From Oceaniferula flava (lineage in GTDB: Bacteria > Verrucomicrobiota > Verrucomicrobiia > Verrucomicrobiales > Akkermansiaceae): a stretch of DNA of 64,000 nucleotides. Below are positions 42,260 to 46,941 of the stretch, piece by piece; the stretch's first letter is position 1, and every line of letters starts with the position of its first letter. The notes beneath the pieces were generated by a model, which ran no database searches, was not told where the DNA came from, and worked only from the letters and a program-made list of their open reading frames with translations. The stretch covers positions 62,001-126,000 of the forward strand of contig NZ_JAFBGL010000001.1 in NCBI RefSeq assembly GCF_016811075.1, written 5' to 3'. The position numbers were made by a program, and so were the translations under genes.

Positions 42260-44836
42260 ATGGGACTCGATAAATTAACCACCAAATTTCAAGAAGCACT
42301 CCAAACCGCCCAGCAGCTGGCCTCCAAGTCCGCCAATGCCGAGCTGAAAAGTGTGCACGTTTTACTCGCCCTGTTACAACAGGACGGAGGCATCGTTGTG
42401 CCGATCCTCGAAAAATCCGCCGTGGATGTCTCCCGGCTGAAGGCAAAAGCGCTCGCTGCGCTGGAAAAGGAACCCCGCATCCAAGGCGCCGCGTCACAAC
42501 CACAGATGAGCTACGGCCTGCGCTCCAACCTCGATGCCGCTGATGCGGTGCGCGAGAAAATGGGCGACGAATTTCTCAGCGTGGAGCATTTCCTGCTCGG
42601 CGCGCTCGATTCCGATTCTCCCGCGGGCAAACTGCTCAAAGAGGTCGGCTTCGACCGCAACAAGGCAGACGCCGCGTTGAAAGAAGTTCGCGGTAGTCAG
42701 AAGGTGACCGATCAAGATCCGGAAGGCAAATACCAGGCTCTGGAGAAATACGGCACCGACCTCACCGCCAAGGCGCGCGAGGGGAAAATCGACCCGGTCA
42801 TTGGTCGGGACGAGGAAATCCGCCGCATCATGCAGGTGCTCTCACGCCGGACGAAAAACAACCCGGTTCTCATCGGCGAGCCCGGCACCGGTAAAACGGC
42901 CATCGTGGAAGGTCTCGCACGCCGCATCGTCAGCGGTGACGTGCCGGATTCGATGAAGAACAAACGCCTCATCGCCATGGACCTCGGCGGCATGATCGCC
43001 GGTGCCAAATACCGCGGTGAGTTCGAAGACCGATTGAAGGCTTTCTTGAAGGAGGTCACCGAGTCCGAAGGCGAAATCATTCTCTTCATTGATGAGTTGC
43101 ACACCATCGTGGGTGCCGGTGCCAGCGAAGGTGCCGTGGATGCCTCGAATTTACTCAAGCCGCAGCTGGCTCGAGGTGAGCTGCACACCATCGGTGCCAC
43201 CACCTTGGACGAGTATCGCAAATACATCGAAAAAGATGCCGCACTGGAACGCCGTTTCCAGCCGGTCCGCTGTGATGAGCCCAGTGTCGAAAGCACCGTG
43301 GCTATCTTGCGCGGTCTGAAGGAACGCTACGAAGTGCACCACGGCGTGCGCATCACCGATGCCGCCATCGTGGCTGCCGCGAACTTATCGGATCGCTATA
43401 TCACCGACCGCTTTCTTCCCGACAAGGCAGTGGACCTGATGGACGAGGCTGCATCGCGCTTGAAAATTGAGCTCGATTCGATGCCCACCGAGATCGATCA
43501 GATCGAGCGCCAGGTGATGCAGCTGGAAATGGAACGTCAGGCTCTGGAAAAGGAGACCGACGATGCCTCCGCTGTGCGTCTGGAAAAGGTGCGTGAGGAA
43601 ATGGCCAACCTGAAAGAGGAATCTGCCACCCTGATGACCCGCTGGCGCAATGAGAAGGACGTCATCGATGTCGTGCGTGGTGCCTCCGAGCGTATTGAGG
43701 AACTGAAAAACGAAGCCGAGCAAGCTCAACGCATCGGTGACCTCAACCGCGCTTCCGAATTGACTTACGGTGCTATTCCGGCCGCCGAAAAAGAACTCGA
43801 GGAAGCCAAGGAAAAGCTCAATCAGCTGCAGGGCGGCGATCGCATCCTGAAAGAGGAAGTCACCGAGGAAGATATCGCCCGCGTGATTGCCACCTGGACC
43901 GGTATTCCTGTGAGCCGACTCCAAGAAGGTGAGCGCGAGAAGCTGGTGAAAATGGAAGAACGGATCGGCCAGCGGGTGATCGGTCAGACCGACGCCGTGG
44001 AAGCTGTGGCCAATGCCGTGCGCCGCGCCCGCGCCGGTCTTCAAGACGAGAACCGCCCGATCGGTTCCTTCCTCTTCCTCGGACCCACCGGTGTCGGTAA
44101 GACCGAGCTGTCCAAGGCCTTGGCTGAATTCCTGTTCGACGATGAAAACTCGATGATCCGCATCGATATGTCCGAATACATGGAAAAACACAGCGTCGCC
44201 CGTCTGATCGGAGCGCCTCCCGGCTACGTTGGTTACGAAGAAGGTGGCCAGCTCAGCGAGCATGTCCGGCGCCATCCGTATTCTGTGGTCCTCTTCGATG
44301 AGATCGAAAAGGCACACCCGGATATTTTCAACGTCCTGCTGCAGGTCTTAGACGATGGTCGGATCACCGATGGCCAAGGCCGCACCGTGGACTTCCGCAA
44401 CACCGTGCTGATCATGACCTCGAACATCGGCAGCCAGTTCATCATGGATGAGGAAAATGCGGAACAGCGTGAAGCCAAGGTCACCGAGGCTCTGCGCGGT
44501 CACTTCCGCCCAGAATTCCTCAACCGGATTGACGAAACCGTGATCTTCGATCGGCTCAAGCGCGAGGAGCTCACCGAGATTGTTAGTCTGCAGCTAGAGC
44601 GGGTGCGTCAGCGCCTTGCCAAGCAGGGGATTGGTCTGGCTCTCACCGATGAAGCCAAGCTGTTCATTGCCAATCAGGGATATGACCCGGTCTATGGCGC
44701 ACGTCCACTCAAGCGGGCGATCCAGAAACATCTGCTCGATCCTCTGAGCTTGGAAGTGCTTGAAGGCCGTTTCAAAGATGGCGACGTGATCCAGGCGGAT
44801 GTGGTGGACGGCAAGGTGCTGTTCACGACTGGCTAA
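42260..44836 (+). CDS. clpB: Chaperone ClpB
   Basis: An 858-residue Hsp100 disaggregase that works with DnaK to pull apart aggregated proteins. Order: N-terminal repeat domain (residues 1-145), AAA1 with Walker [14 protein letters not shown] near residue 210 and Walker [11 protein letters not shown], the long coiled-coil M domain (about 400-525), AAA2 with [14 protein letters not shown] and [12 protein letters not shown], then the sensor-2 region [18 protein letters not shown]. The pore loop [11 protein letters not shown] is present. Length is normal. The M domain identifies ClpB rather than ClpA or ClpC. The leader is G-poor with TTAACC and ATAACC and no Shine-Dalgarno. Confidence 0.97.
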
Positions 44837-45058: not shown

Positions 45059-45180
45059 GATTTGTTGGGTTAAACTTTTTAAAAAATCCGAACATTCTGC
45101 GTTGCGTGGAGTCTGTAATGAGACAGATCGCAACCCCCTGCCATCCATCCGTATCAGACGAACTTCACTTATCTAACATC

Positions 45181-46278
45181 ATGTCCCAACAAGGAATATT
45201 CAGCATCGCTCCAGATTCACATAACGGCTCATCTAATGGAGCCAATGCTAATGGAGCCAATGGCGACCGTAACGGTGCGAACGGGAGCCCTTTTTCTTCC
45301 GTTACCACACCGGCGGCTCAGAACTCTCCGTTTGCAGCGGTGGCTGCCGAATCTCCTTTCCAGCAGGTTGTTCAAAAACCGGCCAATGAGCAGGCATCGT
45401 CGATTCCTCAGCCGCGCGCTGAAGGCGAATCTCCCGCGCTGGGATCTGCGGCTGACAGCGGCTCAGCCGCCACGGATTCCGCCCCTGATGCGAACGGTGG
45501 ACCATTTCAAATGAATGGTTTTCCTGAGCAGTCATCCTCACAGTTCATGGAAGCCGCGCCAGTGGCATCATCCCAAGAGTCATCGCCCTTCGCCGCCGCT
45601 TCTCAGCCAGAGAGCCACGATTACACAGCGGCCAAGGCTGGCCTTGAGCCTCAGCAGGATTTTGCAGCCGTGCAGTCCCGCTACCAGCCAGAATCATCAC
45701 CTGAACCTGCGCGCGCCACCCAAGCGATGCATTACGAGCAAGCTGCAGCTCTGCCGACTCCTACTCAGGCGATCCGTGCAGCCTCGATGGAGATGGATCA
45801 GGCTCCCGCCGCGCAGGCCGCGCCCGAGCCAGCTCCAGTCCCCGCAGCTCAAGAGCCCGTCAAGGCCGAAGCCGTGCAAGAGAAGGTCCCTCAAAATGCT
45901 CCAGCTCCAGCCCAATCCGCATCCTCTGGGCGCAACACCAGCGCTGGAATTCAGCAGCTCGAGCTGCGCGCCATCTTTGGCGTTGATCACATGCTGTCTC
46001 AGGATGAAATGCTGCAACGTGCTCGCACACTGCCGGGCATTCACAATGTTGCCGTGATTCACAGCGAGCAGGTATCTGCGCTATCCAATTTCCGTCAAGC
46101 GCTACAAGGAATGGGCTTTGGCAATGCCGATGAACTGAAGCTCACCTCAGGCGGCGGGGCCGTTGATTTCCTTTCCGAAGGAGAGACCACCCTGGCTGTT
46201 CTCCACGACGCAGGTTATGCTCCAGGTGTTCAGGAAACCCTGATCATTGTGGCTCGCGAGATCGGTAAGTTGGCCTAA
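45181..46278 (+). CDS. Roadblock/LC7-like protein with a disordered PF-motif N-terminal region
   Basis: A 365-residue protein. Residues 1-255 are low-complexity, Ala/Pro/Ser/Glu/Gln-rich and probably disordered, starting with an NGANANGANGDRNGANG repeat. Within them a [SG]PF tripeptide occurs five times, at residues 36-38, 49-51, 58-60, 107-109 and 135-137. The last 100 residues look like a roadblock/LC7 domain: LQRARTLPGIHNVAVIHSEQ, LKLTSGGGAVDFL, TTLAVLHDAGYAPGVQETLI. Such domains (MglB type) bind and activate small Ras-like GTPases, and an MglA-like GTPase gene follows. ATG 45181 is chosen (ATCTAACATC before it) over a GTG at 45106. Confidence 0.7.
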   Translation: MSQQGIFSIAPDSHNGSSNGANANGANGDRNGANGSPFSSVTTPAAQNSPFAAVAAESPFQQVVQKPANEQASSIPQPRAEGESPALGSAADSGSAATDSAPDANGGPFQMNGFPEQSSSQFMEAAPVASSQESSPFAAASQPESHDYTAAKAGLEPQQDFAAVQSRYQPESSPEPARATQAMHYEQAAALPTPTQAIRAASMEMDQAPAAQAAPEPAPVPAAQEPVKAEAVQEKVPQNAPAPAQSASSGRNTSAGIQQLELRAIFGVDHMLSQDEMLQRARTLPGIHNVAVIHSEQVSALSNFRQALQGMGFGNADELKLTSGGGAVDFLSEGETTLAVLHDAGYAPGVQETLIIVAREIGKLA

Positions 46279-46287
46279 CTTTTTCAT

Positions 46288-46329
46288 CCCCCGTGTTCGC
46301 CCTTTCGATAGGGCACGGGGGATTTTTTT
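46288..46329 (+). terminator. Intrinsic terminator between the roadblock and GTPase genes
   Basis: CCCCCGTG/CACGGGGG with an inner GCCCT/AGGGC hairpin is followed by seven T. It separates two genes expected to work together, so the GTPase is either read through or has its own promoter. Confidence 0.9.
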
Positions 46330-46353
46330 ATATTCGATACAGCATTAGGTAAG

Positions 46354-46941
46354 ATGGCGCATGAGGTTCGAGGGCAAAATGAAGTAGTGATTAAAGTCGC
46401 TATTCTCGGTCAGGTAGGAGCTGGAAAATCGAAGATTCTCAGCGCGGTGGCCACTGCTCATGGGCAGGCCGATGTCAGGACGACCTCGCTTTCGGGTGCC
46501 GAAGTGCTGCGCACAGAGTTTTCGTGGCCAGACCTTTTACCTGATGACAGCTCGCTGCGGGTCCGCGTTTTTGCGCTGACAGGTCAGCCAATGCACCAAG
46601 CTGCAGAACAATGCCTGCTGGCCGATGTGGATGCGATTATCTACGTGGTCAACTGTGCTCCCGATACTATTTCAGCGAGCCGTGAATGCTTGCTGGCCAT
46701 GACTCAAAATGCCGCCAAAGTGGGGCTCGATTGGGCGAACACCGTCATGGTGATGCAATACAATCGCGCCGACCTTTATCCCGGCTTCAAACCTTCCGAC
46801 CTCGATCGCTGGTTGGGCATTACTCAGAACAATGTGCCACGGCATATTACTGGCGAGCAGGGCGAGAACCAAGGGGTGGCCGTGAATGACGCCATTGCTA
46901 AAGTGGTGGCAAAGCTGGGACAAGCGGTGGCCGAGGTGTAA
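46354..46941 (+). CDS. MglA-like small Ras-family GTPase
   Basis: A 195-residue GTPase domain. The P-loop is GQVGAGKSK (residues 19-27). The switch-II region reads RVFALTGQPMHQAAEQCLLA, which lacks the Asp of the usual DxxG but matches the TxPGQ style of MglA. DVDAIIYVVNCAPD is the next strand, and QYNRADL (N137, D140) is the base-specificity motif NKxD with Arg in place of Lys. MglA sets polarity or motility in other bacteria by switching with its roadblock partner MglB, which fits the upstream gene. Nucleotide binding should be tested because two motifs deviate. Confidence 0.75.
   Translation: MAHEVRGQNEVVIKVAILGQVGAGKSKILSAVATAHGQADVRTTSLSGAEVLRTEFSWPDLLPDDSSLRVRVFALTGQPMHQAAEQCLLADVDAIIYVVNCAPDTISASRECLLAMTQNAAKVGLDWANTVMVMQYNRADLYPGFKPSDLDRWLGITQNNVPRHITGEQGENQGVAVNDAIAKVVAKLGQAVAEV

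Follow-up and report, generated by a model that had tools for sequence, protein, structure and literature searches.

A motif-rich roadblock protein beside a degenerate MglA-type GTPase in Oceaniferula flava, candidate remains of a three-part switch of Verrucomicrobiia

We analysed a stretch of 64,000 nucleotides from the genome of Oceaniferula flava (hereafter the window), in which two neighbouring forward-strand genes encode a protein with repeated Pro-Phe (PF) tripeptides and a C-terminal roadblock-fold domain, called here the PF-roadblock protein, and a degenerate MglA-type small GTPase. The two open reading frames (ORFs), 45106-46278 and 46354-46941 on the + strand, were found where the initial annotation had placed them. 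For the first gene, the ATG at 45181 is a likelier start than the GTG at 45106, because same-genus relatives begin with MSxxGIFSIA, which matches the window from 45181; the resulting protein (45181..46278, +) has 365 residues. We propose, with a probability of about 0.58, that the two genes are what remains of a three-part switch of Verrucomicrobiia, in which the PF-roadblock adaptor outlived its MglA GTPase switch. Throughout, the window's family (f1, a 65-row clade) is taken as Akkermansiaceae, and the other families of the order are referred to as sister families.

Two adjacent genes and their products

The first ~250 residues of the PF-roadblock protein (45181..45930, +) are rich in Pro, Ala and Ser and, judged by their composition and motif statistics, presumably disordered. 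Four SPF motifs (45286..45294, 45325..45333, 45352..45360 and 45583..45591, all +) and one GPF motif (the fourth in order, 45499..45507, +) can be read from this region. The initial annotation had counted five [SG]PF tripeptides there and we recovered exactly five, against a mean of 1.05 PF in shuffles of the same region. Among the 57 non-overlapping ORFs of at least 100 residues in the window, the PF-roadblock protein carries five [SGN]PF motifs, versus four in the 19,262 residues of the other 56 together.

The C-terminal domain (QLELRAIFGVD... to the C-terminus, 45958..46275, +) had no family match in Pfam or NCBIfam within the whole window protein, Robl_LC7 included, and the whole proteins of the sister-family loci L107 and L108 likewise had none in Pfam. 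An AlphaFold2 model of the domain alone, based on an alignment of 83 rows (predicted local distance difference test, pLDDT, 87.9; predicted template modelling score, pTM, 0.77), shows a helix, a strand, a helix, three strands and a long helix, which is one strand short of the roadblock fold. The best Foldseek matches in the PDB were roadblock and Ragulator chains (7yh1, E 7.9e-3, prob 0.99, followed by 7f8m, 6b9x and 9jue), none with E < 0.001 and with TMq of 0.36-0.52 across the first 20 rows. After re-ranking of these chains with VIA-align, ranks 1-9 were roadblock or MglB proteins with Z from 7.8 to 6.6, values below 8 being weak on their own; rank 10 was a tied profilin, and FLCN, more profilins and a GAF domain came lower. 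The MglC structure 7ct3 was among the matches at Z 5.0. In hhalign, the domains of the window's clade matched those of the sister families with a probability of 99.9. We find the roadblock-like fold suggested by the initial annotation convincing as a model, with modest scores and thin sequence support, because the top structural rows are uniform, the link to the sister-family domains is strong and the gene lies in an MglA neighbourhood.

The GTPase (195 residues; 46354..46941, +) matched Arf in Pfam (E 3.5e-5). Its best sequence matches in the PDB were the MglA of Thermus (3t12, E 3.7e-8) and that of Myxococcus (E ~1e-6), hhalign aligned it to canonical MglA with a probability of 100, and the top Foldseek match of its model was the MglA-GDP structure 3t1o (E 1e-13, TMt 0.82). 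The MglA kinship proposed initially was thus borne out, and both sequence and model indicate a derived MglA and not a new kind of GTPase.

The motifs of this protein were compared with published descriptions of MglA. The P-loop GQVGAGKS (46408..46431, +) is an intact GxxxxGKS and conforms to the GxxxxGK[ST] of MglA. Arg53-Thr54 at G2 (46510..46515, +) aligns with the intrinsic arginine finger that precedes the G2 Thr in Group 1 MglA (PMC4316618). G3 reads ALTGQ (46573..46587, +) where canonical copies have a T[VS]PGQ-type motif, and departs both from the TVPGQ of Group 1 and from the GTPGQ of Groups 2-5 (PMC4316618). G4 reads NRAD (46762..46773, +) in place of the NKRD of canonical copies and deviates from [NT]KxD by a change of K to R, with N and D kept; the G4 Lys is often missing also in MglA Groups 2 and 3 (PMC4316618). 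The initial annotation had described ALTGQ, without the DxxG Asp, and NRAD as atypical. Both motifs are present, but the missing Asp is normal for MglA, as the TVPGQ and GTPGQ consensus motifs indicate (PMC4316618); in Myxococcus xanthus MglA, Thr78 stands in its place, where only Ser is tolerated, and P80A abolished motility (PMC3000849). The odd feature of the window GTPase is the replacement of both the Thr and the Pro of TVPGQ, by A and T, together with NRAD for NKRD. No second MglA was found in the window's genome at E 0.001.

The two genes are separated by 75 bases that hold a strong terminator-like hairpin followed by a T-run (46286..46323, +; -24.9 kcal/mol, z -5.47); with this hairpin, expression of the GTPase in this genome may be separate or weak. 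In the nearest relative (L115) the intergenic space is only 12 bases, versus the hairpin-bearing gap of the window. The linkage of the two genes, assumed initially, extends to the relatives: of the 45 full-length GTPase genes (43 distinct) adjacent to a PF-roadblock gene, every one shares its strand, with gaps of -335 to 78 bp, the lower value reflecting an over-long ORF start in L099. The two ORFs share a reading frame, interrupted by the stops TAA and TAG, but only 13 of the 45 pairs do so, close to the third expected by chance, and the hairpin lies between them; we therefore rejected their read-through fusion.

Gene order, motif conservation and decay among relatives

A named scan returned 71 loci, all with Verrucomicrobia names, 23 of them titled Akkermansiaceae and others including Haloferula, Luteolibacter and Roseibacillus. 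Among 58 related genomes, the GTPase was matched in 22 at E 0.001 and the full PF-roadblock protein in 18. A profile of the PF-roadblock domain found matches in 191 of 336 genomes of the order, leaving 145 without a match, and a wider profile in 68 of 286 genomes of the class. Gene order was read in the window and in 92 further loci, a few of them duplicates. For these readings, the Pfam labels of clpB, FabF and a hydantoinase neighbour were each taken from a single protein, that of Def from two, those of ExbB and ExbD likewise from seed proteins, and the other loci were labelled by similarity to the seeds. The label TonB is looser: TonB_C was found in one of the four proteins tested from the first set (L102) and in none of the three from the second, which are named by position only.

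Eighteen loci represent the sister families, 16 of them hand-picked for spread from the domain-profile matches, plus L064 and L182. In all 18 the PF-roadblock gene is followed by a canonical MglA, in 14 there is an MglB-like gene and in eight a downstream ExbB+ExbD. The MglB-like assignment in the 14 loci means similarity to four seeds; L064, L107 and L108 also match Robl_LC7, L110 does not, and 10 of the 14 were found again beside the PF-roadblock gene in a genome search with Robl_LC7. One locus, L102, reads TonB-ExbB-ExbD-Def-PFRB-MglA-MglB-ExbB-ExbD-x-FabF, where PFRB is the PF-roadblock gene and x a protein without Pfam match. Of 317 genomes of the order, the same Robl_LC7 search matched 72; 71 of these lie outside the window's family, and the single match within it is under the curated cut-off. 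In 49 of the 54 genomes in which the distance could be compared (18 could not be), no more than 2.5 kb separates the match from the PF-roadblock gene.

The initial annotation had likened the pair to MglA and MglB. The genome of the window contains no Robl_LC7 (PF03259) match at E up to 10, a search that matched in nine of 14 control genomes, three of them above the cut-off. Most MglA genes in PMC4316618 have a coupled MglB nearby (390/449), unlike that of the window, for which none was detectable. Judged by gene content, the PF-roadblock protein is a third component and not MglB, because sister families have a distinct MglB-like gene next to it.

Beyond the order, 20 hand-picked loci from other families of the class included 13 with MglA and MglB. 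In L186, L187 and L192 a PF-roadblock-type gene precedes ExbB-ExbD without an adjacent MglA, and the genomes behind the MglA-less loci of these families (7/7) contained no MglA at E 0.001; these three loci apparently document a separate loss of MglA.

The enrichment of PF tripeptides is common to the N-termini of these proteins. With N-termini shorter than 60 residues and exact duplicates omitted, we counted 402 PF in the window's clade (n = 73; 279 SPF and 54 NPF) against 126.6 in shuffles, and 243 against 115.4 in the other families (n = 18). Single rows exceeded all but 5 of 500 shuffles in 49/73 and 11/18 cases, respectively; since the rows share kinship, these counts are not independent. 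The density of [SN]PF was 2.41 per 100 residues in 74 rows, about 200 times the 0.012 obtained in 693 other mechanically called ORFs of the same loci, and 0.008 in 33 TonB-position proteins of these loci. The motif table contains two duplicates (L183 of L103 and L125 of L114). Conservation in relatives, which the initial annotation had put forward as a check, was recovered within the order: the motifs are kept in number and kind but not in alignable position. Whole PF-roadblock proteins range from ~250 to 1300 residues, and from 600 to 1300 in the 18 sister-family loci, where the long N-termini of L101, L102, L108, L110 and others contain apparent, uncharacterised small domains, with stretches such as LxxLIPPxx and VxxxLPLxLIxxQLxxGxxxxxL.

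The GTPase is not a good candidate for the partner of these motifs, and we disfavour it because they mostly persist where the GTPase is gone, at least three [SN]PF being retained in 28 of 35 rows without it. An MglB-type (Robl_LC7) protein in one sister-family locus (L108:9317-10708) has an acidic tail of ~300 residues with SPFE and NPFE. This tail and the adaptor share the kind of tripeptide, as if both recruited one partner.

Decay of the GTPase is seen in the window's clade. Its 25 distinct GTPases include only two with GxxxxGK[ST] (the window and L115), four with the G3 Gln and none with NKxD; outside it, PGQ and NKRD occur in 18/18 and the Arg of G2 in 17/18. By these motifs the window copy, with GxxxxGKS, R53-T54, GQ and the N and D of G4, is the least decayed of the 25. 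In the same genus, the GTPases of L116-L119 (the last cut by a contig end) have lost both the Ser/Thr of the P-loop and the G3 Gln. A canonical MglA in the same-genus genome G011 (C21:2860-3429, on a contig of 3.4 kb; E 2e-73, two in-frame TGA) was set aside as probable contamination; G011 also has a degenerate copy. A GTPase follows the PF-roadblock gene in 27 of the 69 loci of the clade with at least 0.7 kb downstream, and none of these loci matched an MglB seed.

On a tree of 83 domains, 81 could be scored for the state of the GTPase (downstream DNA was too short in L130 and L138), giving 18 canonical, two window-like, 23 degenerate, three remnant and 35 absent copies. All 35 absences, meaning that no ORF in the locus matched the first profile, fall among the 63 scored members of the window's clade; one of them, L146, has a 60-residue ORF with a weak match (E 0.0012). 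We counted at least seven changes between presence and absence on this single, weakly resolved tree, built from few columns by a quick method. Parsimony counts cannot separate gain from loss, and we read the changes as probable losses because the state outside the clade is canonical. The ratio of nonsynonymous to synonymous substitution rates (dN/dS) was computed in five hand-chosen groups (29 pairs, dS > 1 in many). Degenerate GTPases of three clades had values of 0.10-0.25 and thus seem to be kept as proteins; for the PF-roadblock gene, which was measurable in 27 of the 29 pairs, the values were 0.01-0.38.

In the window's clade, 57 loci extend at least 3.5 kb upstream of the PF-roadblock gene. 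ExbB+ExbD+Def precedes it in 31 of these and Def in 47, and 26, window included, lack upstream ExbB+ExbD. The window's genome keeps two such sets apart, TonB-ExbB-ExbD-Def on contig C13 (~63.4 kb, L211) and ExbB-ExbD-x-FabF on contig C3 (~81.4 kb, L213). The upstream neighbour in the window is clpB (42260..44836, +; Pfam), which lies outside the module and is also the neighbour in L115, L116, L117, L118 and L181, an arrangement of the window's genus. A phage or defence origin of the pair was rejected, since the PF-roadblock protein had no match in 50,697 phage records and neither protein matched a PADLOC family.

Origin and possible role of the module

The anatomy, ancestry, co-localisation and erosion of the module being established by these observations, the ancestral trio would have consisted of the PF-roadblock adaptor, an MglA GTPase and an MglB-type roadblock protein. 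The roadblock domain of the adaptor may have served MglA and MglB as a docking platform, and a multivalent array of short linear motifs, formed by the [SN]PF repeats, may hold a client other than the GTPase. More weakly, this client, or the whole complex, might belong to the ExbBD channels encoded nearby; the link is drawn from gene order, adjacency being given without a background rate, and from analogy with the MglA-dependent gliding motor. The ancestral module could then have set the place or the time of action of a proton-driven motor, a role attributed to MglA in the case of AglRQS of Myxococcus. Members of the window's family would use the adaptor in the absence of a complete GTP cycle, and some lineages, including that of the window, would still have a pseudo- or weakly active MglA.

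Several observations weigh against this scenario. Four of the 35 rows without GTPase lack any [SN]PF, and the [SN]PF array seems to have arisen within this order, because in the 20 loci outside it PF is rarer and of other kinds (mostly TPF, IPF and LPF), [SN]PF being nearly absent (two in 20 proteins). The GTPase of the window, which retains the P-loop, Arg-Thr and Gln, may be active, and a fourth clade has GTPase dN/dS of 0.35-0.63, nearer to plain decay. Profile matches between the adaptor and MglB are faint: the hhalign probability was 37.8 for the sister-family domains and only 8.1 for the window's clade, and in a PDB profile search with a sister-family domain a Robl_LC7 chain came second (E 0.042), behind an unrelated adhesin (E 0.036). 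The PF-roadblock domain itself escapes the Robl_LC7 model, so that a divergent MglB could escape too. A model of both proteins as a fused chain reached a pTM of 0.61 and provides no interface measure, and we claim no interface. As for the channels, the window's genome no longer has the adaptor beside either ExbBD set, ExbD of the adjacent type occurs in 52 of 58 relatives (the distant ones may be paralogues) and ExbD is found without the adaptor in the same-genus genomes G008, G009, G012 and G013, which are 96-98% complete. The channel therefore does not need the adaptor, and we rejected a dependence of ExbBD on it as unsupported.

The initial annotation favoured an uncharacterised polarity system. 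As a working MglA-type switch, the window GTPase would bind and hydrolyse GTP, the PF-roadblock protein would be its GTPase-activating protein (GAP) or effector, and the complex would localise to a pole. The two genes are adjacent, the window copy is the one that keeps most motifs and the GTPase pair of the window and L115 has a dN/dS of 0.20, with dS saturated. Nevertheless, the genome offers neither a Robl_LC7 protein nor, at E 0.001, another MglA, the positions of T78 and P80 have changed to A and T, M. xanthus MglA having tolerated only Ser at the first and lost motility with P80A at the second (PMC3000849), and in the same-genus L116-L119 neither the P-loop Ser/Thr nor the G3 Gln remains. 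We thus consider such a switch unlikely in this organism, because MglB is undetected and the GTPases of relatives lack residues for nucleotide binding or were not found beside the gene. Still less plausible is the opposite extreme, neutral loss, in which both genes would be dispensable leftovers. The 145 of 336 genomes without a PF-roadblock match and the GTPase dN/dS of up to 0.35-0.63 in one clade would fit it, but the low dN/dS of the PF-roadblock gene (27/29 pairs, many with dS > 1) and the number of motifs mostly kept after loss of the GTPase speak for a maintained protein.

Two other explanations give the adaptor a role of its own. It could act in the cytoplasm to regulate or cluster ExbB-ExbD channels, with MglA and MglB as optional inputs, and the gene indeed often remains with ExbB+ExbD where MglA is lost or degenerate (the 31/57 loci of the window's clade, and L186, L187 and L192, in whose genomes no MglA was found). 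However, the shared gene order may reflect one or two inherited clusters instead of numerous independent events, ExbD is present in genomes that lack the adaptor, and the upstream ExbB+ExbD is missing in 26/57 loci; this is a possibility on the doubtful side. A scaffold resembling Ragulator or MglC, in which the roadblock domain would pair with another roadblock such as MglB and MglA would merely tune the contact, is in line with the proximity of Robl_LC7 genes (49/54 genomes), with the match to MglC at Z 5.0 and with M. xanthus MglC, a roadblock protein that binds MglB and RomR and leaves the GTPase activity of MglA unaffected (PMC10329633). The pairing partner is precisely what was not detected in the window's family, and we regard this scaffold as rather unlikely.

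The boldest extension of the proposed survival of the adaptor beyond its GTPase would be that Verrucomicrobiia own an MglA-steered, proton-driven envelope machine in which the [SN]PF roadblock adaptor, MglA and MglB govern the adjacent ExbB-ExbD, in parallel to MglA-AglRQS, and that in Akkermansiaceae the switch became a pseudo-GTPase and was then dropped in several lineages, leaving a GTP-independent scaffold. We offer this extension as speculation. At the level of gene content, the MglA-MglB module of the class includes a third roadblock component that is rich in motifs and, in some genomes, lies beside ExbBD. In one family the switch is seen to come apart: MglB undetected, GTPase motifs unevenly eroded and the GTPase gene missing in many lineages, with the adaptor kept. 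Such a gradation lends itself to asking how a roadblock platform functions once its GTPase is gone, and the high specificity of the short linear motif [SN]PF could allow its receptor to be isolated directly.

Comparison with known systems

In the open-licence literature, we found nothing pairing roadblock proteins with Akkermansiaceae, nor roadblock with ExbB, GTPase and operon; MglA with roadblock and Verrucomicrobia led to PMC4316618 and to a globin paper (PMC4476040). Uncharacterised motors of the TolQR type are known from the same phylum as von Willebrand factor A (vWA) force transducers with tolQ/tolR-like genes (PMC12204202), a paper whose main text, as available, contains neither 'roadblock' nor 'GTPase'. 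The present module differs in that no vWA protein was noticed in it, though vWA was not specifically searched.

The closest counterpart is the MglA-MglB pair of Myxococcus xanthus and Thermus thermophilus, which likewise joins an MglA-descended GTPase to a roadblock-fold protein. The sister-family GTPases are Group 1-like by motif (G2 Arg in 17/18, PGQ and NKRD), and the available part of PMC4316618 places Verrucomicrobia only under Group 5. The window departs from this pair by a roadblock protein without Robl_LC7 match, with an SPF-rich N-terminus of 250 residues and one strand short, by a GTPase with ALTGQ and NRAD, and by a genome in which no MglB was detected. The MglC of M. xanthus (PMC10329633; PMC7949163) resembles the PF-roadblock protein as an extra, non-GAP roadblock alongside MglA and MglB; the latter differs by its motif-rich N-terminal part, and the resemblance of the two is one of fold (Z 5.0). 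Finally, the AglRQS gliding motor, to which MglA binds in Myxococcus and which is under its control (PMC9120999), shares with the module described here the association of MglA with genes of the MotA/TolQ/ExbB and ExbD/TolR families, a link that in Verrucomicrobiia is known from gene order alone.

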